From positions 644,001 to 708,000 of the forward strand of contig NZ_AUGD01000001.1 in the NCBI RefSeq assembly GCF_000426845.1: DNA of 64,000 nucleotides, read 5' to 3'. Both the position numbers and the translations under genes were made by a program. This DNA is from Bradyrhizobium sp. in8p8 (lineage in GTDB: Bacteria; Pseudomonadota; Alphaproteobacteria; Rhizobiales; Xanthobacteraceae). A model generated the notes under the pieces. That model saw nothing but the letters and a program-made list of their open reading frames with translations, made no database searches and was not told the origin of the DNA. Of this stretch, positions 19,341 to 53,105 are shown one piece after another; position 1 is the stretch's first letter; each line of letters opens with the position of its first letter.

Positions 19341-19392
19341 CTTCCCTTCGGCGAAAGCCGGCAAAAAGGATTGATGCACTCTCCGCCGACAC

Positions 19393-20360: not shown

Positions 20361-20367
20361 ATGGCTC

Positions 20368-20639: not shown

Positions 20640-20644
20640 GACAC

Positions 20645-21577: not shown

Positions 21578-21722
21578 CGCGGGGAACTCCATTACTGATG
21601 CCGGATTAAAGACGAACGACCGGGCTTGGTTCCGACATCGCGACCCGCCCCACAGCGGGATTTTTCTCATCGGCCTGCCTGGCCGGACTCGACATTTGTT
21701 CTTGTTATGTTCTAATTCGGGC

Positions 21723-22118
21723 ATGACCGACCGACCCGCGAGCTGGCGCATGCCGACCCCGAAACAGATGGAAAAATTGGCCGCTGAAGCCGACCGCAGA
21801 CGAGCGCCGCCCGCTGCGGGTCCAGATGCCCCCCTCCCGGCCGAATATTGGGAATCGGTCCTGAAAGACGCACGCGCCGGCACGACCGGGGCTCAGATGC
21901 GGCAGCGACGTCTTTCCGAGATTCAGCGTCACGTGCTGCGCGTCTCCTGCCGCCGCTGCGAGCGGACCGTGGAAATCCAGACCGCTGATGCCGTTCGACT
22001 GTATGGCGCCAACGCGCTCTGGAAGGACGTCGCGCAGCGGCTGCTCGACAATACCTGCCGGCAGCGCACCGGCAGGCATGAAGAAGACGGGTGCTGGCCA
22101 GCGTTCGAGACGCCGTAG
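21723..22118 (+). CDS. Rhizobial hypothetical protein with a CxxC site
   Basis: A 131-residue protein. The N-terminal half is charged and helical (PTPKQMEKLAAEADRRRAPP), and the C-terminal half has VSCRRCERTVEIQTADAVRL, ALWKDVAQRLLDNTC and a terminal GCWPAFE segment. Cysteines in SCRRCE, NTC and GC may form a zinc site. The ATG at 21723 is preferred over the longer frame to 21528, which overlaps the ku start. It is a recurrent rhizobial hypothetical of unknown function, divergent from ku. Confidence 0.65.
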   Translation: MTDRPASWRMPTPKQMEKLAAEADRRRAPPAAGPDAPLPAEYWESVLKDARAGTTGAQMRQRRLSEIQRHVLRVSCRRCERTVEIQTADAVRLYGANALWKDVAQRLLDNTCRQRTGRHEEDGCWPAFETP

Positions 22119-28085: not shown

Positions 28086-29821
28086 AAATCTACCTTCCCG
28101 CTTGGCACTATCGCGCGCGCGCCATCGTTCAACGCACATGGGGATGGAGTCCAATCGAAGAAATGATCCTGCTCGCGCTCGATCGCACCCCAGAAACGAT
28201 CGAAGAGGTGGCAACGTCGCTCGGGATTCCAAGCCAGGTCGCGGGCTCGACCATCGCGCGGTTGATGCAGTTCGGCCTGGTCGAGCTTCGCCTGGCTCCT
28301 GTCCCTCAATTGGCGACAAGCGGCGTCGGTCAAGACTTCATCCGGTTGGGTGGCGCCTTGCCGGAGCGAACTGAAGATCGGGAGATTCACATCAGTCTAG
28401 TGCTGGAGAAGGTCGGACACTCGGTCTTTCGCAACCGCGACGTCGAGACCGCTCCACTCTATCGGATGACCCATACAGATCACAAGGTCAACTTTCCTCC
28501 GGGCCCAGATGAGACCGATGACACAATGGCGGTCCGCGTAACGCAGCTCGTCGCCGGCATGCTCCGTCCCGGCGAATGGCTGCGCGGCGTTCAAACGATC
28601 AACTCCGTTCTCGAAAGAAAATATCTCGCGATCGAACTGAACGACGTCAAGAACGGATTGCTCCCTGAGGGGGCCAGCCAGGACTTGATCGGCGCTCTTC
28701 AAGCAACAATCAGGACTGGTATTCTGCCGGAAGCTAGCGATCCGCAGCCAAGCCGGTCAGTGACCGTCGATACGATGATTGGCACCGATCAATTGATCGT
28801 CGGCGGCGAACAGCATCTCGAATGCTTCGAACGCATCGTGGGTCAGGCCGAGGAAGACGTTTTCGTACTTTCGACTTTTGTGACGCCTCACGGCGAAAAA
28901 TACACGGAGCAACATGAACGCATTCGAAAAGCTCTTGAACAGGCTGCGCAGCGTGGCGTGCGCTGCCACTTGTTCTACGGTACTGCGCTAGACACCGACA
29001 GAAAGAACGCGATCGCGATGCAGGAGCTCAATATGCGGCTCTCGTCGGTCCGTCGCGCGCGTGGCTTTGTGTTCACGCAGCGCGATTCTGTTCGAAGCCA
29101 TGTGAAATGCCTTGCCGCGGATGACGGCCACGGCGGCGCTGTCGTCGTGCTCGGCTCCTCCAATTGGCTGTCGTCGCCCTTTTCTGCCTTGGAGGTGTCT
29201 GTCGAGCTGACAGAGAACCGCGCGGCCGCGGCGGGCCTGGATCTTTTGCGTTCTATCGTGTCACCTCTTTCAAGCGCCAGCCGTTCGATTGAGACGCTCC
29301 AATTCATAGCATCGGATTTAAGGCGCTCGCGGAGCGCCTTAACATCTAGCGCCGATGCTGGAGGGAGTATTCCAGTTCGGATGAGCATTCTCCAGGCTGA
29401 CGATCATGAGCGATTGATTCGGAGGGTTGCTCACGAAGCCGAAGAGCGATTTGTCTGCTGTACCAACAAGGTCGGAGCTCCCATGGTGCCGGCGATCTTT
29501 AACCCCGCCGAAATCGCAGGACGCCGACTCGACGACGTCCGTGTTTACTACTCGCGCCAGACCGGGCCGATCAAACGGCGGCACGTCAAGGCCCACCGCG
29601 AACGGCTACATGGTGTAGTCGATCTGATCGCCGTGGAGGATCCGCAAGTCCATGCAAAGTTTCTTTTGTGGGACAGAGATCACGTCGTGGTGAGCACGAT
29701 GAATTGGGGCTCTCAGTCGGGTTCACCGGATAATCCTCTCGACGAGATCGGCCTCCATTTGGAAGGGCCTGGCATAGCCGAGTTCCTCCTAATGAAGTTC
29801 GAGAGTCAACTCGACGATTAG
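28082..29821 (+). CDS. mkoB: Mokosh type I MkoB-like phospholipase-D nuclease
   Basis: A 579-residue protein starting at a GTG that overlaps the mkoA stop. The N-terminus has a winged-helix-like stretch (EEVATSLGIPSQVAGSTIAR, LMQFGLVEL). Two HKD-type motifs define a PLD superfamily nuclease: SHVKCLAADDG...VVLGSSNW near residue 339 and VHAKFLLWDRD...VSTMNW near residue 523. In both, His, Lys and the distal Asn are present, so both half-sites look competent. With the coupled helicase this gives the Mokosh pair; the nuclease is thought to be the effector. Confidence 0.82.
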   Translation: MKIYLPAWHYRARAIVQRTWGWSPIEEMILLALDRTPETIEEVATSLGIPSQVAGSTIARLMQFGLVELRLAPVPQLATSGVGQDFIRLGGALPERTEDREIHISLVLEKVGHSVFRNRDVETAPLYRMTHTDHKVNFPPGPDETDDTMAVRVTQLVAGMLRPGEWLRGVQTINSVLERKYLAIELNDVKNGLLPEGASQDLIGALQATIRTGILPEASDPQPSRSVTVDTMIGTDQLIVGGEQHLECFERIVGQAEEDVFVLSTFVTPHGEKYTEQHERIRKALEQAAQRGVRCHLFYGTALDTDRKNAIAMQELNMRLSSVRRARGFVFTQRDSVRSHVKCLAADDGHGGAVVVLGSSNWLSSPFSALEVSVELTENRAAAAGLDLLRSIVSPLSSASRSIETLQFIASDLRRSRSALTSSADAGGSIPVRMSILQADDHERLIRRVAHEAEERFVCCTNKVGAPMVPAIFNPAEIAGRRLDDVRVYYSRQTGPIKRRHVKAHRERLHGVVDLIAVEDPQVHAKFLLWDRDHVVVSTMNWGSQSGSPDNPLDEIGLHLEGPGIAEFLLMKFESQLDD

Positions 29822-30132
29822 TATCTGACACGTATTTTGGGCTGCGTCCAAATTGTCAACGCGCTGCGCGCCAATTGCGCTGAAATTGCTGAGTTCTTTG
29901 TTCAAGGTGGAAAGAGAACCTTTCGCCATCTATCATCAGGCGCAGCCAAAACGCCTGATAAATACAAAGCAGACCGAGCTCGCCGATTTTCCTACAGACT
30001 ACGACGAAGATCGGTATGACCCCCAAAAATCTGCCGTCGTGAAAGCCACGCCGTCATAACGCAACCCGTTTGCAGTGCTTAGCCGGGTGGGCAGCCCCGA
30101 TCGGGAGCGTCCAAAAGACCGCCTCACGAATT
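29822..30132. other. Gap between convergent Mokosh and AddA-like genes
   Basis: About 310 bases, AT-richer than the neighbours. Short frames exist (for example 29853-30059), but none has a ribosome site or a recognisable domain. I see no strong terminator hairpin. Confidence 0.4.
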
Positions 30133-33100
30133 TTACCGTGGCGTTCTAGTCGTGACCCACCGAATGACGCCATCCGTCATGTAAACCACGGCGCCCCGAG
30201 GTGCTCCTGTGGCACGAAGATAGTCGCTCAGCTGAGCGGCATGATCGCGCCTATCCTGCTCGCTGGGCGCGACATCGCTCTTCCAATCCAGGACAACGGC
30301 AGGCTGACCATCTTGAACAGCGATGGCATCTATCCGCCCAGCCAGCGCAGTCGCCGCGGGTGAAGCCGAGAGCATCGCATAAATTGGCCACTCCGGAGCG
30401 AGGCTTGGCCTGAGTGCGGCGATTTCGGGCAGTGCAAGGGTGCGCGCGACGGTCACCGCTATTTCCTCTGGGTCCGGAAGCTTCGCTCCGTTGTCAGCAT
30501 CAATTATAAGCTGCGTCATCAGCACTCGCGCACGTGCAGCGACGACCGGCATCTCCTCGGCCAGTTCGCCGGTAAGCATCTCCTCCATCAGCTTGTGGAG
30601 AATAAGGCCCCGCACGCGGCCGGCGCCGACCGGCAATTCGGTTTCTGGGGCTTCGCCAGGCTCCATCGCGATCGCCTCACCTCTTGGCGCTCGATCAGGA
30701 TCGTGATCGCTTGGCCGCAGCCACTGGAGCGGCATCGCCGCGGCGGCGATCGCGGCACGCTCTGCCCCGAACAGCTCCGGCGTCTGCGTATTCGGAGGCG
30801 CGACGTCGGTCACGCGGGCGACCGGCGTCAAGTGCGACAGGACAAGCTGCGGCAAGTCCCGATGCGCAAGATCAACGATCCGTGCCCAGGACCGCTGCTC
30901 AGCCTGAGGCAATTCCGGAACGATCAGAAGTTCGCGGGCGCGCGTGCAGGCGACATACCAGAGGCGCTCCCGCTCGCGGGCCAAGCTATCGTCTTCAGAC
31001 TCGAGTGCGCGAAGCAGTTCCGGCGGAACCACGTCGCCAATCAGCCAATGCAGTGTTTCGTCGTCGGCGCGGTAGACGAATGCCTCGCGCGAGCGCAGCA
31101 AGGTGCCGGTGTTGATCGGAATTACCACCGGCCATTCGAGACCCTTAGCGCTGTGGATCGTGATGATTTCGATCGCATCGCCTTCCGCATCAACTCGTCC
31201 CTCATTGTGGGGCACGCCGTCGCGCCATTCCCGGGCGAGATCCCGAACGAACTTCCTGAGGCCTCGCACACCGTAAGGCCGCGCACGTTCCAGGAACGCT
31301 TCGAGATTGGCGGCCGCGCGCGCACTACGATCACCCTCGCGCGCGGCGAGGGTTGCACGGACCGCGAGGCGTTCGATCGCTTCGGCCAAGAGCAGCGCAG
31401 GCGTGGTCGCCCGCACGCGTTTTCTGAGGTCTTGTAGGATCGCGAGCGTGCGACGTGCCAGAGGATGGGCGACATGATCGACATCGGTCAGCACCGAGAA
31501 GCGCTGGGGCGCTTCGGCGCGATCGAGATGCGGCGGAAGACCCACGGTGATGTCGAGTAGCTCCTCCTCAGTAAGCCCGACCAGTGGGCCACGCAGCAGC
31601 GCGCCGAAGGCCAATGTGTCGCCAGCGTCGGCGAGTACGCGAGCTAGCGCGAGCAGGTCCTGCACTTCTTGCCGGCGGAACAAACTCTTGCCGGCCTGCG
31701 AGGCGATCGGCAGCCCGCGCTGCTCGAGCGCGCGCTCATAACGCCAAAGCTCGGCGCCAGTTGGCGCAAGCAGGGCGATGCCGCCGGCAGTGAGCGGTAC
31801 GATTGCGCCGTCCTCGTCGCGGATAGGGAGATTGCCGATAAGGCGGGTGCAGAGATCGGCAACGGCTTCGGCCTCCGCGTCGCGGATTTGAGCGGGCCGA
31901 GAATCAGGCGGCACATCCACTGTGATTCGCGCCGCGCAGGGCAGATCATGATCGGGGTCGCCGAGCGTCGACGTGAGCGGCACGTAACCGGGCTGGCCTT
32001 CTCCCGACAACGGGCGCGCGAAGCAGCGGTTGATGTGCCTAAGGATGTCGGGACGCGAACGAAAATTGGCGGTGACCTGAACGATATTTTCCGGCAATTG
32101 CCGCTCAACAGCGGCGCGCGCCTGCGAGTATGAGCCGATATCGGCGCCTCGGAAGCGATAGATTGCCTGCTTCGGGTCACCGACCATGAATAAAGCCCCG
32201 GCACGCAGCACGCTGTCCTGCCAGCGTCCGGCGCGATCCTTCCCCGCGATCCCGAAGAGGATCTCTGTCTGAACAGGGTCGGTGTCCTGAAATTCGTCGA
32301 CGAAGATGTGGCGATAGCGTTCTCCAAGCGCGCGGCGCACGTCGTCATGCTGGCGCACCAGCGCACGCGCCTTCTCGAGCAAGTCGTCGAAGTCCAAGAC
32401 TGCAGCGGCCCGTTTGAAGGCGGCGTAGTCATCGAGTACTTCGTCGAGCTCGGCCGCAAGCTGGGCGACAAGCGCGGTCGCGAACCGACCAAGAACGGTC
32501 CGGTAGCAGCGATTGACCCGCTCAAAGCATGCGGTCGCCTCTTCATTGAGGAGCGCGCCTCGCTCTTTGCCCGCGACACGCTCCCAAGCTGATTTCCGTC
32601 TCGGCGTGAGAAGATCGAAACTGTGTCGGCGCATGCACGCGAGCTGTGGCGGATGGGCGAGACGCCAGAGCGTGGCAAAATCCGGTGGAGGGTCGAAACT
32701 ACCGGCGTAGAAGTTGGCGAGCGTCTCAAGCTCTCCGACCAATTCTAGGGTCTTGGGCTCGACCGGCTGCGACGAAATCCAGCGTCGGAAGTCCGCGACG
32801 GCGTCGACCAGGTCGATGTCGGGCCGACCGCCGAGCTCGGCGGGCAGAGCGCGTGCGCCGCGATATCTGAGACGGAAGCGTGCGAGTTCCTGAAGAGTAT
32901 CGACGATGCGACGCGGATCATCGCGCGAGAGTGTCGCGATGGCATCGCCTGGCCGCTCGGGCGCATTCAATCGCCGTTTCAGCCACTGCTCGAAGACGGA
33001 ATCGAAGGCCGCCGCCGCCTGAACGGCGTCAAGAATGCGCGCGCCCGGATCAATGTCGGCCTCAACCGCATAGCTGGAGATGATCGTCTGGCAAAATGCG

Positions 33101-33447
33101 TGAATGGTGGCGGTTGTCAGTTCGTCGAGCTTCGCCGCTGCACCGGAAAGTGCGCGTCGTTGGTCCACGTTTAGTCCGTTGGGCAGAGCAAGCCGCAAAG
33201 GTTGAGGCACACGTCCCGCAAGCAGCTCCTCGACATAGCGTTGCACGCGCGTCGCCAGCCCGCTCGCGGCAAGCTCTGTGAAAGTGATCGCGGCGATCGC
33301 GCCGGGCTCGGTGCCACGCGCGAGCAGCATGGTCAGGCGTCCGGCCATTAGCGCCGTTTTGCCGGTGCCGGCGGCGGCCTCGACGAGCAACGTGGCGTCG
33401 AGATCAGTCAGGATGCGAAGCCGTGCGGGATCGTCGGCGAGTGTCAT
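30133..33447 (-). CDS. AddA-like UvrD helicase-nuclease
   Basis: A 1104-residue superfamily 1A helicase. EAAAGTGKT (Walker A, near residue 30), AAITFTELAA (motif Ia), VDEFQDTDPVQ (motif II), YRFRGADIG, and LWYVACTRARELL (motif VI) are visible. The C-terminus has a RecB/AddA-type PD-(D/E)XK nuclease: AVVLDWKSD holds the D-x-K pair. The ATG at 33447 overlaps the AddB-like stop as ATGA, so it is preferred to the GTG at 33459. It is the last gene of a six-gene operon headed by AbiEi. It resembles AddA by architecture, but its setting with SIR2 and HerA points to defence rather than housekeeping recombination. Confidence 0.87.
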   Translation of the reverse strand: MTLADDPARLRILTDLDATLLVEAAAGTGKTALMAGRLTMLLARGTEPGAIAAITFTELAASGLATRVQRYVEELLAGRVPQPLRLALPNGLNVDQRRALSGAAAKLDELTTATIHAFCQTIISSYAVEADIDPGARILDAVQAAAAFDSVFEQWLKRRLNAPERPGDAIATLSRDDPRRIVDTLQELARFRLRYRGARALPAELGGRPDIDLVDAVADFRRWISSQPVEPKTLELVGELETLANFYAGSFDPPPDFATLWRLAHPPQLACMRRHSFDLLTPRRKSAWERVAGKERGALLNEEATACFERVNRCYRTVLGRFATALVAQLAAELDEVLDDYAAFKRAAAVLDFDDLLEKARALVRQHDDVRRALGERYRHIFVDEFQDTDPVQTEILFGIAGKDRAGRWQDSVLRAGALFMVGDPKQAIYRFRGADIGSYSQARAAVERQLPENIVQVTANFRSRPDILRHINRCFARPLSGEGQPGYVPLTSTLGDPDHDLPCAARITVDVPPDSRPAQIRDAEAEAVADLCTRLIGNLPIRDEDGAIVPLTAGGIALLAPTGAELWRYERALEQRGLPIASQAGKSLFRRQEVQDLLALARVLADAGDTLAFGALLRGPLVGLTEEELLDITVGLPPHLDRAEAPQRFSVLTDVDHVAHPLARRTLAILQDLRKRVRATTPALLLAEAIERLAVRATLAAREGDRSARAAANLEAFLERARPYGVRGLRKFVRDLAREWRDGVPHNEGRVDAEGDAIEIITIHSAKGLEWPVVIPINTGTLLRSREAFVYRADDETLHWLIGDVVPPELLRALESEDDSLARERERLWYVACTRARELLIVPELPQAEQRSWARIVDLAHRDLPQLVLSHLTPVARVTDVAPPNTQTPELFGAERAAIAAAAMPLQWLRPSDHDPDRAPRGEAIAMEPGEAPETELPVGAGRVRGLILHKLMEEMLTGELAEEMPVVAARARVLMTQLIIDADNGAKLPDPEEIAVTVARTLALPEIAALRPSLAPEWPIYAMLSASPAATALAGRIDAIAVQDGQPAVVLDWKSDVAPSEQDRRDHAAQLSDYLRATGAPRGAVVYMTDGVIRWVTTRTPR

Positions 33448-36098
33448 CGGCAGCCCCACACTCGTGCAAACCCTCCGAAAGCGCGCATGAACGCGCCGTT
33501 CTTGAGCTGAAGATAGGCTGCTGGCGACGACGGCAGGGCTATGCGGAAGTCATTGTGCTCTTCCTGAGCGTCGGGGCCAGGCAGGGCATGGCCACCGCGC
33601 AGGAGGGTGATGGCCGCCGTGACATGCCCGCCGAGTTCGGCGATCGCCTGGTCGACGTCCGGTAGGCGATAGGGCCTCGGCTCTTTGTTGCCGAGAAAGA
33701 CGAGGCGCGCGATCACGCGCGGATTGTCGGGGAGCAACTGACTGGCCGCGACCGAATAGATGACGCGCTGAAGCTCCGCACCGCGGCCAAGCACGATCTC
33801 CTCCGCTCGGCGCGGTTCTACGCCGGTCTTATAGTCCGACACGCGCACGCCGCGACGGTCGCCGGTGAGATCGAGCCGATCGATATTGCCTCGGATGCGC
33901 ACCTGGGTACCGGGAATCGTAACAAGGGAATCGGGGCGCCAGGGTAGATCGTGTGCCATCGCACCATCGCCAGCTTGACTGAAAGCAAGCTCCGTCCAGC
34001 TTCGCGTACCGGGTTGGAACGTCTCGTCAAGCGTCAGTGCCTTGAGGGCGAGCTGAGCTGCGGCAGCGAGCGTGTGTTTCCAGAGCAACGCGGGCGGCGC
34101 CGATCGCTTGAGTGGCCAATGCGTGCGGACCGTCTCCGTCGAGGTCGCGAGCGCAGCTTCGATTTCCTCCCGGGACGCACGCGCATAGCCCGGCACAGGT
34201 TCGAGCGCATCAACCGTGCGCTTCAGCAACTCATGGACCAGCTCACCATAAGAGCGTGCGTCCAGCGTGAGGGGCTGATCGTCTTCTGGGACCGCGCGCC
34301 AGCCCAGCGCGTAGCGCCAGACGAAGGCGAGCGGATCGCGCAACATCAGCCGCAAGGAGGTGGCGGACTGGACATCACCGATTGCGCGGACGATTTGGGG
34401 ATGGTCTGCGCGAACCTGGCCATCGTGGGCGGTGACGATCGGGCGCCGCCAGTTGCGCCAGCAGAGATTGGCTGCGGTGAGCGCCGGCGATGTCGCCGCT
34501 TCGTCCGGCCGTGCAAGAAGACGATCGGCCTCGCTGAATGCATGCTGCGGAATGCGCGCCCGCTTCAGGATCTGCAAAGATGCGCTCTGCGGGATCAGCG
34601 GGCTGGCGGACAACTGCCCACCTTGAGCGTTACGCCGGCTTCGCGAGAGAACGCAGCCGCGCGCCGCCTGACTGGTGATGACGGCAAAGGCGCGTCGATC
34701 TTGCTCGGCGACGGGATCAGGGTCAAGCACAGAGCGCGGCAGGATGTGGGCCGGTATCAGTGGGTCCTCGGCCGTGCGGCGCGGCCAAGAGCGCGATGTC
34801 ATGCCGAGCAGGCGCACCCAGGGACGCGGCGCACCTGCAAGGTGGCTCGCCGGGCACCAGACAGCGCTCGCGCCTGGATCGCGTCCATCGGGCAGCCGCA
34901 AGTCCTCTAGTGAGAATTCGAGCCCTTCGGCCGGCGCGCGTCGAAGCGCCTCGGTCCAGAGCGCACGGGCCGCTGTGCCCAATAGCATCGCGCCGGCCTG
35001 CGCAGCCGCCTCGGGGCCACTCGCAAGCAGCCGCAGAATGGGCATCACGACCGGTCTTGGATCGCCTGCGTCGGCGCGGCGGCCGGTCGCCTCGTCAAGC
35101 GCGCGCTGCCACTGATCAATCTCGAACAGCGCCGCACCAGGCTGGAGGCCGAGCGACCAGTCCGCAGGCAAGTCGGCCAAGGCACGGCTTCGACCCGCGG
35201 CATGGCCGAACAGTCGCCGGAGGCGATCCTGGCCAAGCCCGTTGAGCAGGACGTCGGCAAGTGCGGCGCACGCTTGTCCCTCGCGCGATGCGAGGACCGG
35301 CACGCCGTGCGAGAAATGGAGTGGGAGATCCGCGTCCGCGACGAGAACCAGGAAGTGCTCGTCCCAGTCCTCGGTGGCCGTGGCACAGATCGCGATCTCA
35401 TCGGGTCGCGCGCGGCCAGAGGCAATGAGTTCACGCATCCAACGTAGCGCTTCGACTGCTTCGGCGCGCGGGTTCGCGCAGGAAACTAAGGATATGTCCG
35501 CAGCCATCTCGCGGTCGCTGGTAATTAACTGGCCCGGAAACCAGTTCGCATCGGAGGTTCCAGGATTGCGCCAAGCGAGTGGGACCGTCTTCGCGAGCGT
35601 CGCAAGAAGCGGACGCCAGACCGATGCAATCTCACTGAGCTGATCGATATCGATTGACCCGAGCGCTGCAGCCGCATGGGCCGCGTGCGCAATTGCGGCA
35701 TCGCGCAAGTCGCGCGGTGTCAGAACCCCTGCTGGGAGGTTGGCGCGAACGCGGCGCTCGACCTCCGCAAGCTCGGCAAGCCGAGCATTGTGGCTAGCGA
35801 GCCCCTCAAGATCGAGGTCGGCTTGCCAAACCTTTGCGAGCGTGCGGGCGATTGACCGTGTCGTGCCCGGAAGCTGACGGATACCTTCGAGCTCCGTCAA
35901 GCCGCCGGCGGCGAGTGCAGCGCGAATGGCTGGGTCGAGGTCCTGGGATCGCGCCGGTCGGTTAAAGCCTCCGGCGAGACGTGCAGCAAGCAGTGGAAGT
36001 GTGAAAATCTGCAGCCCAGAATCCGCTCGCTGTGCGGCAGCGATCCGCGCTGTACGGAATGCAAGCGGCCCTTCGACAACTATCGATCGTCGACTCAT
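33444..36098 (-). CDS. AddB-like PD-(D/E)XK nuclease
   Basis: An 884-residue protein with an AddB/RecB-type nuclease in its last 250 residues: LTLDARSYGELVHELLKRT, then NIDRLDLTGDRRGVRVSDYK with the catalytic D-x-K, then LQRVIYSVAASQLL. The N-terminal part resembles the inactive helicase of AddB (FRTARIAAAQRADSGLQIFT) without a clear Walker A motif. I do not see the cysteine pattern of an AddB iron-sulfur cluster around the nuclease. Its ATG overlaps the HerA stop (ATGA, 36095-36098) and its stop overlaps the AddA-like start. It probably forms a heterodimer with AddA-like. Confidence 0.85.
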   Translation of the reverse strand: MSRRSIVVEGPLAFRTARIAAAQRADSGLQIFTLPLLAARLAGGFNRPARSQDLDPAIRAALAAGGLTELEGIRQLPGTTRSIARTLAKVWQADLDLEGLASHNARLAELAEVERRVRANLPAGVLTPRDLRDAAIAHAAHAAAALGSIDIDQLSEIASVWRPLLATLAKTVPLAWRNPGTSDANWFPGQLITSDREMAADISLVSCANPRAEAVEALRWMRELIASGRARPDEIAICATATEDWDEHFLVLVADADLPLHFSHGVPVLASREGQACAALADVLLNGLGQDRLRRLFGHAAGRSRALADLPADWSLGLQPGAALFEIDQWQRALDEATGRRADAGDPRPVVMPILRLLASGPEAAAQAGAMLLGTAARALWTEALRRAPAEGLEFSLEDLRLPDGRDPGASAVWCPASHLAGAPRPWVRLLGMTSRSWPRRTAEDPLIPAHILPRSVLDPDPVAEQDRRAFAVITSQAARGCVLSRSRRNAQGGQLSASPLIPQSASLQILKRARIPQHAFSEADRLLARPDEAATSPALTAANLCWRNWRRPIVTAHDGQVRADHPQIVRAIGDVQSATSLRLMLRDPLAFVWRYALGWRAVPEDDQPLTLDARSYGELVHELLKRTVDALEPVPGYARASREEIEAALATSTETVRTHWPLKRSAPPALLWKHTLAAAAQLALKALTLDETFQPGTRSWTELAFSQAGDGAMAHDLPWRPDSLVTIPGTQVRIRGNIDRLDLTGDRRGVRVSDYKTGVEPRRAEEIVLGRGAELQRVIYSVAASQLLPDNPRVIARLVFLGNKEPRPYRLPDVDQAIAELGGHVTAAITLLRGGHALPGPDAQEEHNDFRIALPSSPAAYLQLKNGAFMRAFGGFARVWGCR

Positions 36099-38125
36099 TT
36101 CCCCTCAGCCGCGACGCTATCATCGCCATGTTCGAAAGTTGCCGGCGTAATGCGAACCTGAGCCGCTCGCCCCTCCTCATGGAACCACAAATCTCTAATT
36201 CTCGCGTCATCGCTTGCAGGCAAAGGATTTGCGTCGCGCACGCGAAAGGTCGTGGGAAGGTTCACGGAGGTGCCGAAGACCAGCGCATGCTGCTTCGGAA
36301 GCGACGGGAGCCGCTTCAGGACCGCCTCGGAGATGAACGGGGTCATCTGCCGTATATGAGCAAGGTCGTCGGGATTCTGGATTCGATGGATGACGAAATT
36401 CGAGCACTGCGAAAGAATGGTCTTCGAGAGTTCACTGGGCCTCTGCGAAGCGGCGAGAATGAACAGCCCGTACTTTCGCCCTTCCTTGGCAATCCGCTCG
36501 TAAACTCTGCTGGCGTCTATGGCATAGCGGGATGGCTTCTCCGCGATGTATCGATGCGCTTCCTCAAGAAGCAGATGGATCGGAAACCGATTGCGTGGAT
36601 CTGCTTGTCGGAGCAGCCGAAAGGCCATTCTAGCGAGCACTGACGCTACGAGCTCGACAACCTCATCCTCCACCGCATTCATGTCGATGATGACGATCTG
36701 GTTGCGTTTGACCCAACCCGCTCCGTCGCGTGCCAAACCGAGGAGCTGCTCAAGGAAGTTTTCGAGCGACGGCCCAGCTTGGCTTCCTTGAAGGTCGTAG
36801 CGCAGGAACGCATATTCAGGTCGCTCCTCGAGCGACTTAAAACGCGTCAGCATCTGCGAGCAGTAATCTCGGATCTGACGGTTACCGTGAGCCTCCTCGT
36901 ATAGGATCGCCAGATCGAGCGCCTCTCCCAACGCGGAAAACTCAAAGGGAAGGTTGGCATATGCCGGGAATTTCAAACCTTCGATGATAAATCCGCCGCC
37001 ATTGGCGTTTCCCAACAAATAGGTTGTTAAACCGGCAGGGTTGGCCATCTGGCCGAAGCCGATTTTGATGAATGGCGCGATCTTTTGATTGTTGATCTCC
37101 GGCGTGTTGAATCTTTGCAGCAGACCGACCATGCGATCGTGTTTTGACGGACTGCCTGTGTCGTCACGAAGAATTTGGCTCAGGCAGGTTGCCAGAATGT
37201 GGTTCTTGATCCCCTTCAGCTCCGCCGCGCTGCCCGCTGAGAACAATGTTGCCAGCCCGAGCGCCATGCGCAGTATCGGTAGTTGGGTGCGCTCGCTGGC
37301 CTGCAGAAGCAGCTCCCACTCTGACTGCTCCAGAAACCAATGGGGCAGACGAAAACGCTCCGTGCGTGCGGTGCCGTCCAGAATGACATGGTCCACGCCG
37401 ATCTGCTTGCGCTTTGCGAGCGGCGACAGCGCCTTCGCATATTCTCCATTGACGTCGAATACGACGAACGTGGCACCGCGAGCATGGTGTTCTTCCGCCT
37501 TTTCGAACAAGGATTGGAGGACCGATGCGACCGTGCAGGACTTCCCGCTCCCTGTGTTTCCCAGGACGGCAGTGTGTCCGCCGAAGAAATCATCGATCCT
37601 GACCTTAACGTCGTAACCCTCGAATATGACGGACCGGCCGATCGTCAATGCGCGATAGCGGGTGGCATCAGGTGGCGTGGGTGGAACATTGTCGATCGGG
37701 GGTGTAGGCTCCGAAGGATGATCGGTTTCGAAGACTCGATCCAGTTCAGCGTCCAGCGCATACAGTGCGTCGCCGTAGAGTGACGGGAACACGGAGACGC
37801 CGAAGCGAAACCTTTCGCGCCGATCTTGAGGCAGCATCCCGACGGGAACGACATCGAGGTACTTCGCCGAAGAAGCCTTATCCAGCTCCCCTTCACTGCG
37901 ACTAACATGACCAACGTCGCGCTCACGCAGGCCGACGACCTCGACAACCACGTACTCGGTTTGCACCGCGACCATCAGGAACGATCCGAGCCTGGCGACA
38001 TAGTGAACGTCGTCGAATCCGACGACGGTGAAGTTGTCGGTGCCCGCATGCATCTCGATCACGAAACGGTCGGCCGCGACCGAGACCACCTTGCCGATTG
38101 CGCGCTTCCGATCGTCACGACTCAT
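36095..38125 (-). CDS. herA: HerA-like hexameric ATPase
   Basis: A 676-residue HerA/FtsK-superfamily ATPase. An N-terminal HAS-barrel (residues about 8-110) precedes the Walker A motif GNTGSGKSC (about 189-197). The Walker B/acidic motif is LLLEEAHRYI near 535, followed by EGRKYGLFILAASQRPSELS, the arginine-finger region and the typical HerA C-terminus (CSNFVIHRIQNPDDLAHIRQ). The ATG at 38125 has GGAGG 6 bases upstream and overlaps the end of the SIR2 gene. HerA with SIR2 forms a known NAD-depleting anti-phage complex; here it is also coupled to an AddB-like nuclease downstream. Confidence 0.9.
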   Translation of the reverse strand: MSRDDRKRAIGKVVSVAADRFVIEMHAGTDNFTVVGFDDVHYVARLGSFLMVAVQTEYVVVEVVGLRERDVGHVSRSEGELDKASSAKYLDVVPVGMLPQDRRERFRFGVSVFPSLYGDALYALDAELDRVFETDHPSEPTPPIDNVPPTPPDATRYRALTIGRSVIFEGYDVKVRIDDFFGGHTAVLGNTGSGKSCTVASVLQSLFEKAEEHHARGATFVVFDVNGEYAKALSPLAKRKQIGVDHVILDGTARTERFRLPHWFLEQSEWELLLQASERTQLPILRMALGLATLFSAGSAAELKGIKNHILATCLSQILRDDTGSPSKHDRMVGLLQRFNTPEINNQKIAPFIKIGFGQMANPAGLTTYLLGNANGGGFIIEGLKFPAYANLPFEFSALGEALDLAILYEEAHGNRQIRDYCSQMLTRFKSLEERPEYAFLRYDLQGSQAGPSLENFLEQLLGLARDGAGWVKRNQIVIIDMNAVEDEVVELVASVLARMAFRLLRQADPRNRFPIHLLLEEAHRYIAEKPSRYAIDASRVYERIAKEGRKYGLFILAASQRPSELSKTILSQCSNFVIHRIQNPDDLAHIRQMTPFISEAVLKRLPSLPKQHALVFGTSVNLPTTFRVRDANPLPASDDARIRDLWFHEEGRAAQVRITPATFEHGDDSVAAEGK

Positions 38126-39419
38126 CGTCATCCTCCCCCTTCTGGGGAGCCGCGGCCTCCTTCTTCGGGGCCATCGCCTCGATCACCTTCCGAACGGCGT
38201 CATCAATGCGCTCGCTCGGGCGTTGCGGCATGAACTCTTCGATAATGGTGTCGAAGTAATGGGCTTTGCGTCCGGCGCTGCGTCCGGCACCCCCAATGAT
38301 CCAAATTCGTGGATCATTTAGCGCGCGAAGCTTCGCAATCTCCCCGTCCAAATCTGGATCTACAAAGATCACGAGCCGGAACGTGGGAATCGTCAGGGCC
38401 TGATAGATGATATTGTTGATGTGCTCGTCGCCGAAGGCATACCCCATCGTAAATAGCACGCTCTGTTCGCGAACAATGCGTGACTGGAATTCCCGAAACA
38501 GATCGGCATAGGGAGACCCAAGGCTCGAATTCTGCTTGGCAGGCGTCGGATAGATCATCACCTTGCCCGGTTCTTTGGAGACGGCCGTTTCTCGGATCGG
38601 GAAAAGTCCGTGATCGTCCTCTGTCCAACTAATGGACCCATGAATCTTACACAGATAGACAAAGCCATCGACCGCAGACCACTTGCGGCTGGTGACATCG
38701 AGCTGTTCAGCGAGGGCGTACCGAAACGTCGCTGGATTGAACCGCCGTTCGACAACGCCGGAGAAGCCGTTCGTGTATGGCAGGCCGAGCCTATCCATTG
38801 CGGTCTCGTTGAAGAGATCGTAGTTCGTGGTGAACACCCAAGGACGCGGAAGAGATCGGTCGCGCAGCACAAGCTTGCGATAGAAGGATTCATAAAGGCC
38901 AACGACGGTATGGTCGCCATTCGCGAAGGCGCCGTTCGTGCATTTGGCCCAAAGAAATGTTTGAACCTTCTTGATGATCGATTCGACAGTCTTGAGTCTT
39001 GTGGCGGCATCACTCAGCGAACTGCGCACTAAGACGAAGCGCAGGCTGAAAAGAAGCTCCATCAGCCGCTCTAGGTTGCGCGCATACTCCGCGGCACCGA
39101 GGTCGATTCCAAACTGCTTCAACAGAGCATCACGTTCGTCGGCTGTCGGGAACGATTGATCCCCTTCCTTCGGTGCCGCCGTGAATTCCTTCGCGAGGGG
39201 CGCCATCGTTGGGATGCCGACCTCCTTGTCATTAGCCCACGACGAAGAACAGCCAGCTCCCAGGAGGAACGCCACATTTTTGGCATTCAGTGACTCAGCC
39301 AACGCCTTTCTGACAATATCCGCCCCATCAGGCCAATCATAATCAGCCTTCTCACCCTCGACGCCGCGAATAAACTTGAATGTGAGCTTCGATGGCTCCG
39401 TCTTGTCTGCATCCGCCAC
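38115..39419 (-). CDS. SIR2-domain protein, SIR2-HerA type
   Basis: A 434-residue protein with a SIR2 fold: AFLLGAGCSSSW at residues about 50-61 (NAD-binding GAG), FTTNYDLFNE (catalytic Asn), LCKIHGSISW (catalytic His) and GYAFGDEHINN. The C-terminus is a charged tail. It starts at a GTG with GGGG about 8 bases upstream, 18 bp after AbiEii. In known SIR2-HerA systems the SIR2 subunit hydrolyses NAD+ on phage infection and HerA assembles it into a large ring. The overlapping HerA gene supports the same role here. Confidence 0.88.
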   Translation of the reverse strand: MADADKTEPSKLTFKFIRGVEGEKADYDWPDGADIVRKALAESLNAKNVAFLLGAGCSSSWANDKEVGIPTMAPLAKEFTAAPKEGDQSFPTADERDALLKQFGIDLGAAEYARNLERLMELLFSLRFVLVRSSLSDAATRLKTVESIIKKVQTFLWAKCTNGAFANGDHTVVGLYESFYRKLVLRDRSLPRPWVFTTNYDLFNETAMDRLGLPYTNGFSGVVERRFNPATFRYALAEQLDVTSRKWSAVDGFVYLCKIHGSISWTEDDHGLFPIRETAVSKEPGKVMIYPTPAKQNSSLGSPYADLFREFQSRIVREQSVLFTMGYAFGDEHINNIIYQALTIPTFRLVIFVDPDLDGEIAKLRALNDPRIWIIGGAGRSAGRKAHYFDTIIEEFMPQRPSERIDDAVRKVIEAMAPKKEAAAPQKGEDDDES

Positions 39420-39437
39420 CGCATTCCCCCCAAATCT

Positions 39438-40454
39438 CTATTTCGCCGCCTCGTTTGCCCGGCGCGCGACATCTGCACTCCGCGCCATGAGGACCTCGAA
39501 GGTTTCAGCATCTTCCAACAGCAGACCGTCCTCGACCATGCGACCATAATCTTCTTCCAGCGCCTTCGCGGCATCACCGCCAGGCACGAGCTGCAAACCG
39601 CCATTCACGGCAGCCGCATAATCGATCGGACTTCGATCGGCCGCCCTCTCAACGAAGAACATGCCCTTGTGGCGCGCGACCGCGTTCGCCAGCTCCCTAT
39701 CGGCGAAAGCCGCATCCGCCAGGCCGGCGTCATCCAGACGCGCTATGTCATGCCAGTGGCGTGCGAAGCGATCACCGCGCAGCCGCTGCTGGAGGCAGAA
39801 GACGTGGACAGCCGTCGCCTTCTCCCAGAAGGTCCGCTCGGCGTGCATCACGCGCGGCCGCGCTGTTGGGAACGTTACGCCTTCAACCAGGCCGGATGCA
39901 TCGCATTTGATGTCGCGGAGGCTCGCCGGCTCGCCCGTTGATCGCGCCCCGAACTCCAGCATCACACTCGGTGCGACGTAGCCCGAGCCAGCGGTGGTCG
40001 CCTCGTAGTCGACAAACAGCTTCTCGCCTTCCACGCGGACGGCAGCCGCCAACGTCGCGGCAGCCAACGCGTCCGCGACGACCGGCTGCGCGGTGCCCGC
40101 CACCCAATCCGGCAAGCGCTTGCGCACCTCGCTCGACCAGCGCTTCTCCTCGCTACGTGTTTTCGGCAACGCCTCGCCGTTGCCGTCCACCAGGTCGGGC
40201 GCGATCGCCCGGATGTCGTAGGTCAGGTCGACGTCCTCGGAAAACCGCCGGATGACCCCATAGGCCTTCGACAGTGACGTGCCGCCCTTGAACACCAGAT
40301 GCTCGCCGAGCGCCGACCCGTAGAGCGTGGCGAGCGCCCAAACCACCCACACATCCTTCTCGAGAAGGTGCGCCGGTCGTCCCGACTGATCGGCCGCGAC
40401 GCTTAGCGCCTCGCGGCGGTCAGCGACCGGAAGGTGGAGAAAGGCGTCAGCCAT
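39438..40454 (-). CDS. abiEii: AbiEii-type nucleotidyltransferase toxin
   Basis: A 338-residue protein of the AbiEii/AbiGii family. The nucleotidyltransferase signature HLVFKGGTSLSKAYGVIRR with the metal-binding DVD in FSEDVDLTY sits at residues about 52-78. Downstream PRVMHAERTFWEKATAVHVF is typical of the family. Its start overlaps the antitoxin gene by 8 bp. Characterised AbiEii toxins are NTP-dependent transferases that stop growth. The next gene downstream is SIR2 after only 18 bp, so the toxin-antitoxin pair and the SIR2-HerA group are probably one transcript. Confidence 0.9.
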   Translation of the reverse strand: MADAFLHLPVADRREALSVAADQSGRPAHLLEKDVWVVWALATLYGSALGEHLVFKGGTSLSKAYGVIRRFSEDVDLTYDIRAIAPDLVDGNGEALPKTRSEEKRWSSEVRKRLPDWVAGTAQPVVADALAAATLAAAVRVEGEKLFVDYEATTAGSGYVAPSVMLEFGARSTGEPASLRDIKCDASGLVEGVTFPTARPRVMHAERTFWEKATAVHVFCLQQRLRGDRFARHWHDIARLDDAGLADAAFADRELANAVARHKGMFFVERAADRSPIDYAAAVNGGLQLVPGGDAAKALEEDYGRMVEDGLLLEDAETFEVLMARSADVARRANEAAK

Positions 40455-41040
40455 GCGCCGCCTTTCCTACGCTGCGCGCGAGCCAGGTCGGAAGCTGCGG
40501 CGCTGCCGCGACCAGTTCGCTGAAAGTGGACGGCGAGAGCTTCCGCTTCAACGTTTTCAAGGCGGCTTCCGCTTTCTCCGGCCCAAGCCAGGCCAACGCC
40601 CGCACCGCCTCGCCAGCCGGCTTATGAGCCAGGGCGAGTTGCCAGCGCGGAGCATGACGAAGTTCGACAACCTGTTTGCCGAGATTCATCGTTCGGCTGC
40701 GGCCGGAGGTTAGATAGACCGACCGAACCGGCACCTGGGTCGTCAGGCCGAGAGTGTTGGCCGCCGCCGCCCCGCTCGGGACGATGACTTCGCCGCGCTG
40801 GTTGGCGAGCGCCTCGACCGCTTGCTGGACGGAGGGGGCCCTCGTTCCGAACCGGCTCGTGATGGGACGGAGATAGACGCCGCGACCGGCCCGGATCAGT
40901 TGGCCCCGCTCAGTCAGACGCGACAAAGCCTGATCCACCGCGGCGCGATTACCGAGGTGAAGCAAGCTCTTAGCCGCCACGGGCGTACCTTCCGGCAACC
41001 CTTCGGCATGCGCGAGAATCTGTTCGGTTAACCGTTGCAT
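40447..41040 (-). CDS. abiEi: AbiEi-type antitoxin/transcriptional repressor
   Basis: A 197-residue antitoxin of the AbiEi/DUF6088 type. An N-terminal winged helix (LPEGTPVAAKSLLHLGNRAA, ALSRLTERGQLIRAGRGVY) binds DNA; the C-terminal part (VYLTSGRSRTMNLGKQVVEL) is the neutralising domain. CAGGAG upstream supports the start. AbiEi proteins repress their own operon by binding inverted repeats; a perfect 10-bp inverted repeat lies between the promoter elements and the start codon. If the whole six-gene run is one transcript, this repressor controls SIR2-HerA and the nuclease-helicase as well. Confidence 0.87.
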   Translation of the reverse strand: MQRLTEQILAHAEGLPEGTPVAAKSLLHLGNRAAVDQALSRLTERGQLIRAGRGVYLRPITSRFGTRAPSVQQAVEALANQRGEVIVPSGAAAANTLGLTTQVPVRSVYLTSGRSRTMNLGKQVVELRHAPRWQLALAHKPAGEAVRALAWLGPEKAEAALKTLKRKLSPSTFSELVAAAPQLPTWLARSVGKAAHG

Positions 41041-41050
41041 GGCCGTTCTC

Positions 41051-41087
41051 CTGTCAGAAATATACGCGGTTTTCTGACAGTTTTCAA
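41051..41087 (-). promoter_or_regulatory. Promoter with inverted-repeat operator of the AbiE/SIR2/HerA operon
   Basis: Read on the minus strand: TTGAAA (41087-41082), 17 bases, TATATT (41064-41059), a near-consensus sigma70 promoter. CTGTCAGAAA and TTTCTGACAG (41051-41060 and 41071-41080) form a perfect 10-bp inverted repeat with a 10-base spacer; one arm lies in the spacer and the other overlaps and follows the -10 box. AbiEi autorepression through such repeats is known for the family. Confidence 0.75.
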
Positions 41088-41121
41088 GCCAGCGGACTTG
41101 CTGGGGAGCCGTCTATTTCGG

Positions 41122-42453
41122 CTAGATCAAGGGCGAACCCCTGTCGAGTAGACCATCCAGGAAATCCTCCCGCGAGCTGATCGGCCCCGCGAGCGTCGCA
41201 AGGATCAACGCCTCGACGATCTGGCGGGCCAACGACCGCGCCATCACCCGCTCTTTCGTCGAGATGGCGGTCATGGCTCGGCCGTGCAGGAATGCGCTTC
41301 GCACGTTGAAGAGCTGCTCATACTGATCGGCGAAGCGTCGATCGCCCAGCAGGCCGGCCACCCGTCCCCGAATTCTATTCGTGGCGCGCATCCCTTTGTG
41401 GCGGTCAGGCGCGATGCGAAAATTCTTCTGATAGTCCGCGCGCAAGCCGAGCGCCGCCTCGATCGTCGTGATGTGCGCAAGGAATTCATCCACGCCCTCG
41501 GCCAGGAACGCGCGGACGAGGAAGTGAGGGATCGGCGTCTCAAACAAAACCGATTGCTTCGCCTGCTCGACGGTCGTCCATCGGCTCTGGTCCCACACCG
41601 TCAGCTCGGTCTTTGCATCCTCTTCTAGGTGCAGCTCGACCGGGCGCTCTTCCTCGTATGTCCCGCCATAGCCATCGTCGTAGACCCGGTCCTCCCAGCT
41701 CAACGTGTCGGGGGACGGCGGCGAACTGGGACGAACGAAGATGTCGCTGTCGATCGTGTAGACCCATGGCACACGGAAGCCCCGCCAATCGACTTCCTGC
41801 ATGGTCGACCAGCTCTCCCAGGGGGCCAGCAGGAGGAAGAACAGCGCTTCTTCCAAGGCAGTCGGGAACCGCCCTTGATGCGGTTCGACCCGCCCCAGAT
41901 CTAGGCTCAGGTCCATGAACAGGACCGGGACCGCGCGTTCCTCCGGCTCCTGCTCGAGCACCACGACCTCCTCAACGATCAGCCAGTGGAATTCGGCGAA
42001 GCGCTCGGCATCGAAGTCCTGACGCGGATAAAGCCGCCTCAGCCGGCGCGCATCGATCACGCCGCGCAGCTCGTCGGCGCTCAACCGGCACACCCTGGCC
42101 GGACCGAATGCGTGCGGCGGCAGGTCGGCGGCAAGATCGAGCGGCGCAAGGTGAATGCGCCTGGCCCGGGTAGCGCGCAGCGCCGCGTCCAATCCCTTCG
42201 CCGCTTCCTCCACAGGCATGGCAAGATGGGCCGTGTCCTTCTGCAGGTGACATGGAAGGCCCAACGCCCGCAATGCCGTCGAGAGCGCGAAGTTCGGCCC
42301 CTTCTTGCCGGCGTTTGGGTAGTCGTCGCGGCAGATCTCACGCAGCCGCATGAAGGCCGGGTGCGCAAGAATATTGTCGGGCCCGGGCGGTCGTATGCGC
42401 CACAGGTCCGTCATCGCCATCAGCATCGCCATTCTCGGACCCGTCTCGCTCAT
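41122..42453 (-). CDS. Protein with C-terminal HEPN-like domain
   Basis: A 443-residue protein. The last third resembles an ApeA/Abi-type HEPN domain: FLAHITTIEAALGL, then NRIRGRVAGLLGDRRFADQY, then FNVRSAFLHGRAM. Arg385 and His390 make the R-x4-H motif of HEPN RNases. The first 300 residues are unfamiliar, with a DFDAERFAEFHWLIVEEVVV segment and tryptophan-rich WESWSTMQEVDWRGF. Its ATG shares one base with the TIR stop (TGATG). HEPN RNases act as abortive-infection effectors, and a HEPN beside a TIR effector in one operon is unusual. Family placement is by motif only. Confidence 0.65.
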   Translation of the reverse strand: MSETGPRMAMLMAMTDLWRIRPPGPDNILAHPAFMRLREICRDDYPNAGKKGPNFALSTALRALGLPCHLQKDTAHLAMPVEEAAKGLDAALRATRARRIHLAPLDLAADLPPHAFGPARVCRLSADELRGVIDARRLRRLYPRQDFDAERFAEFHWLIVEEVVVLEQEPEERAVPVLFMDLSLDLGRVEPHQGRFPTALEEALFFLLLAPWESWSTMQEVDWRGFRVPWVYTIDSDIFVRPSSPPSPDTLSWEDRVYDDGYGGTYEEERPVELHLEEDAKTELTVWDQSRWTTVEQAKQSVLFETPIPHFLVRAFLAEGVDEFLAHITTIEAALGLRADYQKNFRIAPDRHKGMRATNRIRGRVAGLLGDRRFADQYEQLFNVRSAFLHGRAMTAISTKERVMARSLARQIVEALILATLAGPISSREDFLDGLLDRGSPLI

Positions 42454-43565
42454 CAGGAGATCCGGAGCCGCCGCAAAAGCTTGCCGAGGACCGCCTCGTA
42501 CTCCTCGGGCTTGGAGAAATCGGCGTAGAGCTTGCCTTTCAAGAACTCTGGCAGCTCACATTCCTCGTAGAGCAGCGGCAGCACGACCACCTCGCCGCTC
42601 GCGATCTCGCGGTTCATCGCCACGTCGAGCTCCTTCTTCACCCAAGGAGCGCCGATCGACTTTTTCGACAGGACGACGGCGATGTAGCGGCTGAGCTTCA
42701 TCCCCTCTTCGATCTTGGCGATCAGCGAGTCCCCGATGTCGATTTCGGCCTCGTCCAGCCACACATGCTCTACGCCATGAGCGAGCAGATCCTTGCGAAG
42801 CTGGCGCACGAAGGGTTTGTCGACGCCAGTATGGCTCAGGAAGATGCCGTGATACTTCTCATGCGCCGGATCGGCCTTCTCCAACGCGAGGCTGTCGCGA
42901 ACGAGCTGGTTCTGGGCTTCCTGCGACGTCGGCGGCGTCAGCAGCCAGCCCGTCGGGGTGCCGAGCATCAGCTGACCGCCGAGGCTGTAGCCCTCCGGCG
43001 TCGCGGCGATCGACCCATAGCCTTCGCCGGGATCGGATAGGCACAGCGTCCAGCCGCCGGTCCGCGACAGAACCTCGAAATAGCGCGCGAAGGGGCTGTC
43101 GAGATCGACCGGCCCCATCCTGCGCCCCTTCTTAATGAGAAGCTCCGAACGCTTTACGAAACTCGCCACTTTCGGCGCCACATATCCAAGATGGGTTTCG
43201 CGATAGCCGAAGAAGTTCACCCGCTTCGGCTCGGACAGGCACCAAACGACCGTCGCGCCACCCGCAATCGCGGCCTCCATCTCCTTGCGTCGGTCCTCGC
43301 CATCGAAGGCGGAGTCGAGGTCGTAGCGGTCATTCTGCCCCTTCAGCTTGCCCAGCTCGTAAAGTTCGTTCGAAAACTCTCCGGCCTTACCGAACAGAAA
43401 ATGCGTGTAGCTCTCCGGATTGATGATGATCGTGTCGTATTCGTAGAGCGGATAGGCCGCCCGCTCTCGATCGACATCGGGCTGGCAGAGCCCGAGATTT
43501 TCGATCTCCACGCCATCGATCTTGTCGCCGGTGTAAGTCAGCCCGACAGTCAGCACCCGTTTCAC
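42453..43565 (-). CDS. TIR-domain protein with novel N-terminal domain
   Basis: A 370-residue protein. Residues 238-370 form a TIR domain: YHGIFLSHTGVDKPFVRQL, VWLDEAEIDIGDSLIAKIEE, YIAVVLSKKSIGAPWVKKEL with the catalytic Glu at 312, and VVVLPLLYEECELP. This is the arrangement of NAD-consuming bacterial TIR effectors. The first 230 residues are unknown and contain VLTVGLTYTGDKIDGVEIEN and DTIIINPESYTHFLFGKAGE, which could be a sensor or nucleotide-binding fold. It overlaps the upstream nuclease-like gene by 4 bp and the HEPN gene by 1 bp, so all three are translationally coupled. Confidence 0.8.
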   Translation of the reverse strand: MKRVLTVGLTYTGDKIDGVEIENLGLCQPDVDRERAAYPLYEYDTIIINPESYTHFLFGKAGEFSNELYELGKLKGQNDRYDLDSAFDGEDRRKEMEAAIAGGATVVWCLSEPKRVNFFGYRETHLGYVAPKVASFVKRSELLIKKGRRMGPVDLDSPFARYFEVLSRTGGWTLCLSDPGEGYGSIAATPEGYSLGGQLMLGTPTGWLLTPPTSQEAQNQLVRDSLALEKADPAHEKYHGIFLSHTGVDKPFVRQLRKDLLAHGVEHVWLDEAEIDIGDSLIAKIEEGMKLSRYIAVVLSKKSIGAPWVKKELDVAMNREIASGEVVVLPLLYEECELPEFLKGKLYADFSKPEEYEAVLGKLLRRLRIS

Positions 43566-51161: not shown

Positions 51162-51200
51162 CACTCCACCTGGCGATACCGGCCAGGGAGCAGCCGGACG

Positions 51201-53066: not shown

Positions 53067-53105
53067 GAACTCGGATGTTCTGTGTCAATACACCGCATAG
53101 AGACA

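Follow-up and report, generated by a model that had tools for sequence, protein, structure and literature searches.

How do an AbiE toxin-antitoxin pair, a SIR2-HerA pair and an AddAB-type helicase-nuclease come to stand in one apparent operon, and do they belong together? The question is raised by a six-gene cluster (positions 30133-41087) in a stretch of 64,000 nucleotides of Bradyrhizobium sp. in8p8 (contig NZ_AUGD01000001.1, positions 644,001 to 708,000), called the window below. Our data suggest that the cluster is probably a composite defence operon made of interchangeable modules, in which a portable, self-repressing AbiE head is followed by a Nezha-type NADase and a divergent AddAB-type cargo. 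Loci and genomes used for comparison are given by L and G numbers.

Gene layout of the operon

The open reading frames (ORFs) of the window run in the order AbiEi-AbiEii-SIR2-HerA-AddB-like-AddA-like, all on the minus strand, and the Pfam, PADLOC and NCBIfam assignments name AbiEi, AbiEii, SIR2, HerA, a PD-(D/E)XK protein and a UvrD helicase with a C-terminal nuclease. The first gene (40447-41040) encodes an AbiEi antitoxin-repressor (DUF6088/AbiEi_4) of 197 amino acids (aa), recognized by PF13338 (27.1 bits against a cut-off of 25) and by the PADLOC AbiEi model (232 bits). The second (39438-40454) encodes an AbiEii nucleotidyltransferase toxin (338 aa; PF08843, 134.5 bits against 22.5) with the motifs KGGTS (56) and SEDVDL (72). 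They are followed by a SIR2-family NADase (SIR2_2, 434 aa, 38115-39419) with TTNYD at 197 (N199) and KIHGS at 258 (H260), and by a HerA ATPase (DUF87/HerA, 678 aa, 36095-38131) with Walker A GNTGSGKS (191) and Walker B LLLEEAH (520). The last two genes, together called AddBA here, encode an AddB-like nuclease/helicase-fold subunit (PDDEXK_1, 884 aa, 33444-36098) with the nuclease residues D740, D755 and K757, and an AddA-like UvrD helicase with a C-terminal PD-(D/E)XK nuclease (1108 aa, 30133-33459) with AGTGKT (30), DEFQDTD (388) and LDWKSD (1057). Catalytic motifs are therefore found in SIR2, HerA, AddB, AddA and AbiEii.

AbiEi and AbiEii overlap by 8 base pairs (bp) and an 18-bp gap separates AbiEii from SIR2. 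SIR2 and HerA overlap by 17 bp with the first HerA ATG (11 bp with the second), HerA and the AddB-like gene by the 4 bp ATGA, and the AddB-like and AddA-like genes by 16 bp from the AddA GTG start (4 bp from an inner ATG). The six genes, with the order, strand, overlaps and gap listed by a sequence-only reading of this DNA, were borne out by the ORF list and by re-reading of the junctions.

Promoter and operator

The AbiEi gene is preceded by a promoter (41051-41087, minus strand) with a -35 box TTGAAA (41087-41082) and a -10 box TATATT (41064-41059), spaced by 17 bp and matching the consensus at 10 of 12 positions. It lies in an inverted repeat with the arms CTGTCAGAAA and TTTCTGACAG; exact 9-bp arms were located at 41052-41079, the tenth pair being read from the sequence, and an equal repeat appeared in 0 of 100 shuffles. 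The promoter scan and the repeat search thus recovered the near-consensus promoter wrapped in a perfect inverted repeat that had been described before. The scan of 29700-41400 showed no further promoter-like site on the minus strand, but it was no richer than shuffled sequence (2 sites against a mean of 1.9).

The left half-site GTCAGA precedes AbiEi in all 26 rows compared (25 distinct), with differing or absent cargo, and the right half-site TCTGAC is exact in 19 of them; the half-sites are kept although AbiEii identity drops to 45% across the rows. By sequence and by conservation, an inverted-repeat operator of the AbiE kind is present at the promoter. In the excerpted text of PMC3985639, known AbiEi represses its own promoter via inverted repeats and AbiE stabilises plasmids, and according to the abstract of PMC11062541 AbiE together with a second pair stabilises an integrative and conjugative element. 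The earlier suggestion that AbiE is a stabiliser that also represses the operon finds support in part, from the half-site in 26 of 26 rows, from the AbiEi repression described in the same excerpt (PMC3985639) and from the AbiE pairs that head other cargos.

The AbiE head and its cargo

The order AbiEi-AbiEii-SIR2-HerA, ending in an exonuclease gene, is found in four other loci: in G334, in Niveispirillum (G175), on Novosphingobium pSA1 and on Haematobacter pOT1-2 (L030, L031, L114 and L115). Other AbiE pairs precede other genes. In one genome (L020/L045) AbiE is joined to AddBA without SIR2-HerA, and on rhizobial plasmids it is followed by Hachiman genes (L207; HamA 373.7 bits, HamB 1664 bits), by Gabija-like genes (L206; GajA 220 bits, GajB 144 bits), by a UvrD helicase (L212), by a DUF4238 protein (L205) or by an uncharacterised 458-aa protein (L213). 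Some of these loci (L207, L208) were misread by a simple ORF caller, and the published annotation was preferred. On Sinorhizobium plasmids, AbiE pairs adjoin ligD or Ku genes (L210, L211).

The trees indicate that the AbiE-SIR2-HerA combination did not arise just once. In the SIR2+HerA tree the window groups with the AbiE-less loci L029, L113 and L174 (support 94/91 and 85/86 in two trees), and the AbiE-exonuclease loci sit apart from it. In the AbiE tree the nearest relatives of the window are L206 (Gabija-like), L204 (solitary) and L205 (DUF4238), with a support of 92/90 and an exact place that the second tree does not settle; the AbiE of the exonuclease loci is not nearest to that of the window. 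Forcing the five AbiE-SIR2-HerA loci together is rejected by the approximately unbiased (AU) test on both trees (p-AU 0.0011 for SIR2+HerA and 0.00019 for AbiE), the group being defined by its AbiE head and the tests having followed sight of the first trees. Because a single joining is rejected, either AbiE was attached to this SIR2-HerA family on more than one occasion or modules have been exchanged. The AbiE-SIR2-HerA core, which recurs in four other loci and was put together repeatedly, is thus no one-off accident.

Several observations weigh against the reading of AbiE as a portable head. The AbiEi of the window stays under the NCBIfam AbiEi equivalog cut-off (33.6 against 150). AbiE is often solitary, such cargo not being seen in L204, L208-L211, L221, L223 and L226. 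Among 13 intact and annotated plasmid AbiE pairs (18 plasmid loci minus L214, L215, L222, L224 and L225, which are broken or not annotated), 5 have a same-strand gene no more than 150 bp downstream and 3 have one no more than 150 bp upstream, an excess that is small and only suggestive. This AbiEii is present in 10 of 385 genomes of the class, and a clear same-strand gene follows it in half of the ten (SIR2 in three, AddB in one, a 490-aa ORF in one). Moreover, AbiE is found on plasmids and in defence islands, surroundings in which defence genes are frequent neighbours in any case. Since L177, L178 and L179 belong to the clade of the AbiE-SIR2-HerA-exonuclease loci and have no AbiE head, SIR2-HerA does not need one. 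Finally, the right half-site is off by one or two bases in all four AbiE-SIR2-HerA-exonuclease loci, which are among the seven departing rows. The conservation of the operator is much firmer than the excess of cargo behind AbiE.

It could be argued that the three modules only stand side by side in a defence island and work independently, without meaningful shared regulation. In agreement with this, the full six-gene order was found, among the loci examined, only in copies of one nearly identical island, so that the composite as a whole is one recent lineage, and the element carries other defence genes. Nevertheless, the tight junctions, the lack of an internal promoter-like site on the minus strand (a weak test) and the separate assembly of AbiE-SIR2-HerA joins in other loci make this explanation unlikely.

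SIR2-HerA and the slot after HerA

The SIR2 and HerA proteins give strong PADLOC matches (757 and 1021 bits) and are sequence relatives of the chains of solved complexes such as 8yhx. As in Nezha, the genes of a SIR2 NADase and a HerA ATPase are adjacent, and the catalytic Asn and His are present, TTNYD and KIHGS aligning with the same motifs in 8yhx_G. The NCBIfam equivalog cut-offs of SIR2_antiphage and HerA_antiphage are not reached (146.2 against 500 and 217.5 against 800). According to the excerpted text of PMC11559045, SIR2-HerA depletes nicotinamide adenine dinucleotide (NAD), the SIR2 Asn and His are required for protection, and a Vibrio cholerae SIR2-HerA pair is protective without the other genes of its island.

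In 8 of 20 other SIR2-HerA loci (L030, L031, L114, L115, L174-L176 and L179), the gene directly behind HerA encodes a DEDDh exonuclease, and it overlaps HerA by 14-17 bp in five of the eight. This count leaves aside the truncated L118, L133 and L180, of which L180 has the exonuclease and L118 and L133 show none, and it includes L032, which is merely 30-33% alike. One exonuclease scored 73.5 bits with RNase_T and 114.5 bits with the PADLOC DEDDh model. As a side observation, the DEDDh 3'-5' exonuclease at L115:10021-10914 is a possible third component of this SIR2-HerA subtype.

In the window, the slot after HerA is filled by AddBA. It could be imagined that the SIR2-HerA lineage recruits a DNA nuclease as a third component, often the DEDDh exonuclease and here AddBA, which would trim or consume the DNA handled by HerA. 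The exonuclease gene behind HerA in eight loci and AddBA in the same slot, with its 4-bp overlap, are consistent with such a replacement, as is the failure of tblastn to find an exonuclease remnant in 144 kilobases (kb) around the window. It is nevertheless doubtful, even more so than the fortuitous stack considered above, since 12 of the 20 loci have neither nuclease, AddBA also adjoins Hma-, Gabija- and Wadjet-type genes, and a single replacement event is seen.

The AddB-AddA pair

Since the AddB-like protein found no match by sequence among solved structures, its fold was predicted. The AlphaFold2 model (pLDDT 89.3, pTM 0.80, alignment of 40 rows) has AddB 4ceh_B as its best Foldseek match (E 1.7e-25), and VIA-align superposes it on AddB 3u4q_B over 812 residues (Z 24.7, rmsd 6.1). 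The PDDEXK_1 protein is thus assigned to AddB by its predicted fold. In the alignment, D740 and K757 are present in all 40 rows and D755 in 39. Known AddB carries a four-cysteine iron-sulphur set. No conserved set of four cysteines was found in the AddB-like protein, the cysteines present in more than 60% of the 40 rows being only C546 (38), C277 (29) and C207 (26). The AddA-like protein has both the UvrD helicase and the C-terminal PD-(D/E)XK nuclease of AddA, its closest solved relative is AddA 3u44_A (E 5e-33), and it remains under the AddA equivalog cut-off (245.8 against 860.75). A housekeeping AddB is encoded elsewhere in the genome (1322 bits against a cut-off of 486.5), and AddBA is accordingly not the sole AddAB of the cell. 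AddB-like relatives were absent from viral contigs among 147 candidate stretches.

The AddB alignment, scanned against GTDB contigs, found 254 relatives; only the best 80 of these were retained, so that divergent AddB loci are under-sampled. Removal of six near copies (the island copies L034, L035, L036, L054 and L067, and L071, a copy of L070 by neighbourhood) and addition of two plasmid loci left 76 non-redundant loci. An AddA-like gene is downstream of AddB in 72 of them (AddB-AddA span above 5 kb), and AddB-AddA is therefore a two-gene unit of its own. An upstream ORF overlaps the AddB start by 4 bp in three loci, namely the window (HerA), L038 (JetD) and L043 (a 104-aa ORF), and the upstream gene is 2-3 bp from AddB in L066 and L068. 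Six of the 76 loci contain an AbiEii relative. In L045, L039 and L041 it adjoins AddBA on the same strand, in L033 it belongs to the six-gene operon, and L037 and L100 have it on the opposite strand. The annotation of L119 shows an AbiE pair behind AddBA.

Neighbour clusters were counted within 7 kb in the 73 loci with an AddB ORF (of 78 supplied), each Hma or Gaj name resting on one representative protein per cluster. On the opposite strand, a Hma-named helicase with a WYL regulator is near AddBA in 15 loci and GajB plus GajA lie downstream in 7; another GajA is present in 8. Two side observations concern the upstream genes. In a Pseudolabrys metagenome-assembled genome (MAG; L038:988-4943), the gene that overlaps the AddB-like gene is Wadjet JetD-like, AddBA being there appended to another defence operon. 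RES-domain genes stand upstream of AddBA in L066:9288-9992 and L072:8857-9597, perhaps another toxin-antitoxin family heading AddBA.

In a preprint (PMC12407980, in the part excerpted), blocking of RecBCD by phages at DNA ends is reported, and AddAB is suggested to be blocked likewise. This would make an extra AddAB-type complex plausible as a defence. AddBA might instead manage the DNA ends of the element, and not phage DNA, together with a non-homologous end joining set of Ku and two ATP-dependent ligase genes (15977-21883), AbiE being then an addiction module. This set, and the typing as conjugative of 40 of the 62 plasmid records with an AddB-like match, would fit such housekeeping; the recurrence of AddBA near Gabija-, Hma- and Wadjet-type genes makes it improbable.

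Separability of AddBA and SIR2-HerA

The sequence-only reading had joined AddBA and SIR2-HerA in one functional unit and had held that, if AddBA were rare in homologous SIR2-HerA loci, the set would be a chance stack of known systems. AddBA is absent from all 20 full and all 3 truncated other SIR2-HerA loci (within stretches of 6.9-22 kb), and this SIR2-HerA subtype is attached to AddBA in 1 of 76 AddB loci, which is the present island, the other 75 being without it; these neighbourhood samples are modest and were partly picked by identity rank. No hidden AddB was detected in the SIR2-HerA loci by tblastn (E 1e-3, with the window as positive control), the hits being only helicase-like AddA fragments of 58 residues (L175) and 106 residues (L180). 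The proposed functional unit is thus not supported.

The distribution in genomes points in the same direction. Among the 385 genomes of the class, the AddB-like protein is found in 11 (E <= 0.001, some being mere fragments) and this HerA in 5 (E <= 1e-60, one just 32% identical). Both are present in G000 and G175; they form one operon only in G000 and are about 55 kb apart in G175. In 299 genomes of the order of G334, HerA is found in 9 (E <= 1e-100) and AddB in 11 (E <= 1e-60), and the two lists do not overlap. HerA-family ATPase genes lie just downstream of AddBA in L037 and L043, and in Haematobacter missouriensis (L101:16102-19157) AddB-AddA is followed 72 bp later by a different SIR2-HerA pair, in an order reversed relative to the window.

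A single machine in which AddBA, sensing or resecting the ends of phage DNA, feeds the HerA ring, HerA fires SIR2 and AbiE guards the set, for which the seamless ATGA coupling of HerA and AddB and the HerA-type neighbours of L037, L043 and L101 could be cited, is very improbable in view of these counts, the separate genomes and the V. cholerae pair that protects alone, and an integrated four-module system is rejected as a conserved unit.

Proposed function and implications

In the composite operon that we favour, the AbiE pair would supply its own promoter, an operator around the -10 box and, with AbiEi, the repressor-antitoxin that closes the promoter. The genes behind AbiEii would be transcribed from the AbiE promoter, in one transcript of six genes throttled by AbiEi, and the AbiEii toxin may help to keep the element in the cell. 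SIR2-HerA would deplete NAD once infection is sensed, and AddBA, as a helicase-nuclease, would engage DNA ends and break down or process linear DNA, both with a presumed antiphage effect. AddBA would most simply be a second, separate line of defence, or alternatively an end-processing complex that escapes phage inhibitors fitted to the housekeeping AddAB.

A broader and more tentative proposal, which we hold to be possible rather than likely, is that AbiE is a plug-in control head of immunity. Unrelated systems (SIR2-HerA, AddBA, Hachiman, Gabija and others) would have been put repeatedly behind an AbiEi-repressed promoter, titration or inactivation of AbiEi would free toxin and cargo together, and AddBA would be a further AddAB-type defence module able to fill the nuclease slot behind HerA. 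Among the open-licence PMC titles and abstract starts listed, none dealt with the six-gene set, with an exonuclease beside SIR2-HerA or with defence operons headed by AbiE, which is weak evidence of absence. Should an antitoxin promoter repeatedly drive defence genes of unrelated kinds, the toxin-antitoxin pairs of defence islands would become testable regulators, which bears on the activation of defence systems and on the origin of new composite ones. The locus also draws attention to the DEDDh exonuclease tied to this SIR2-HerA subtype and to the AddB-AddA pair, which recurs in alphaproteobacteria on plasmids and in defence neighbourhoods.

The mobile element and its other genes

A segment of 22,652 bp around the operon is 100% identical in Afipia sp. 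OHSU_II-C1, in Afipia sp. Root123D2 and in a Bradyrhizobiaceae MAG, and 99.95% identical in a Sphingorhabdus MAG, though the binning of MAGs may err. In OHSU_II-C1 the shared stretch (99.9-100%) covers some 97 kb, beginning 40 kb or more to the left of the window and ending at about 57,073; in Root123D2 near-identity ends 1.9 kb left of the window, with pieces 83-98% similar beyond. The right end falls at 57,067-57,081 in three genomes. The operon thus resides on a mobile element of at least 97 kb that has recently spread horizontally. Neither the window nor nine flanking stretches yielded a tRNA gene or attachment site.

Besides Ku and the ligases, the element encodes a replication initiator, a ParB-like protein and ArdC. 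A Mokosh-type pair (24612-29821, plus strand; MkoA 713 bits, MkoB 301 bits) faces the operon in convergent orientation and stops 311 bp short of the AddA-like gene's end. Immediately before the AbiE promoter (41122-43565, minus strand), the genes of a TIR protein (370 aa) and of a 443-aa protein without family matches overlap by 1 bp and are perhaps a separate two-gene module. Near the right end (49371-54380, plus strand), another SIR2-domain protein (596 aa), a 621-aa protein and a DUF4238 protein are encoded in a row; the latter has no BLAST match to the DUF4238 cargo of L205.

Comparison with known systems

With SIR2-HerA (Nezha/Gao_19), a 12:6 complex that depletes NAD on infection, the window shares the SIR2 NADase and HerA ATPase, their overlapping genes and the catalytic Asn/His motifs, a likeness drawn here from the genes; it differs in being a divergent subtype under the NCBIfam equivalog cut-offs, with an AbiE head and a nuclease tail. 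The AbiE pair resembles type IV toxin-antitoxin systems, in which the antitoxin counters the toxin without touching it, in its AbiEi repressor-antitoxin, AbiEii nucleotidyltransferase, inverted-repeat promoter and residence on a mobile element, whereas its AbiEi is of the DUF6088 type and four further genes stand behind it. Its operator is a short repeat around the -10 box, in contrast to the 11-bp repeats 27 bp apart of Streptococcus agalactiae, as given in the excerpt of PMC3985639. AddBA is like AddAB in its full-length predicted AddB fold, AddA helicase motifs, nuclease domain in both subunits and addB-addA order, and unlike it in an AddA far under the equivalog cut-off, an AddB without the conserved four-cysteine set and the presence of a separate housekeeping AddB. 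Finally, BrxR-type regulators of the WYL family, in the excerpt of PMC9122601, are repressors common to diverse defence systems, with inverted-repeat operators as in the window; here, however, the role of portable repressor would fall to an antitoxin, which moves together with the toxin of its pair.

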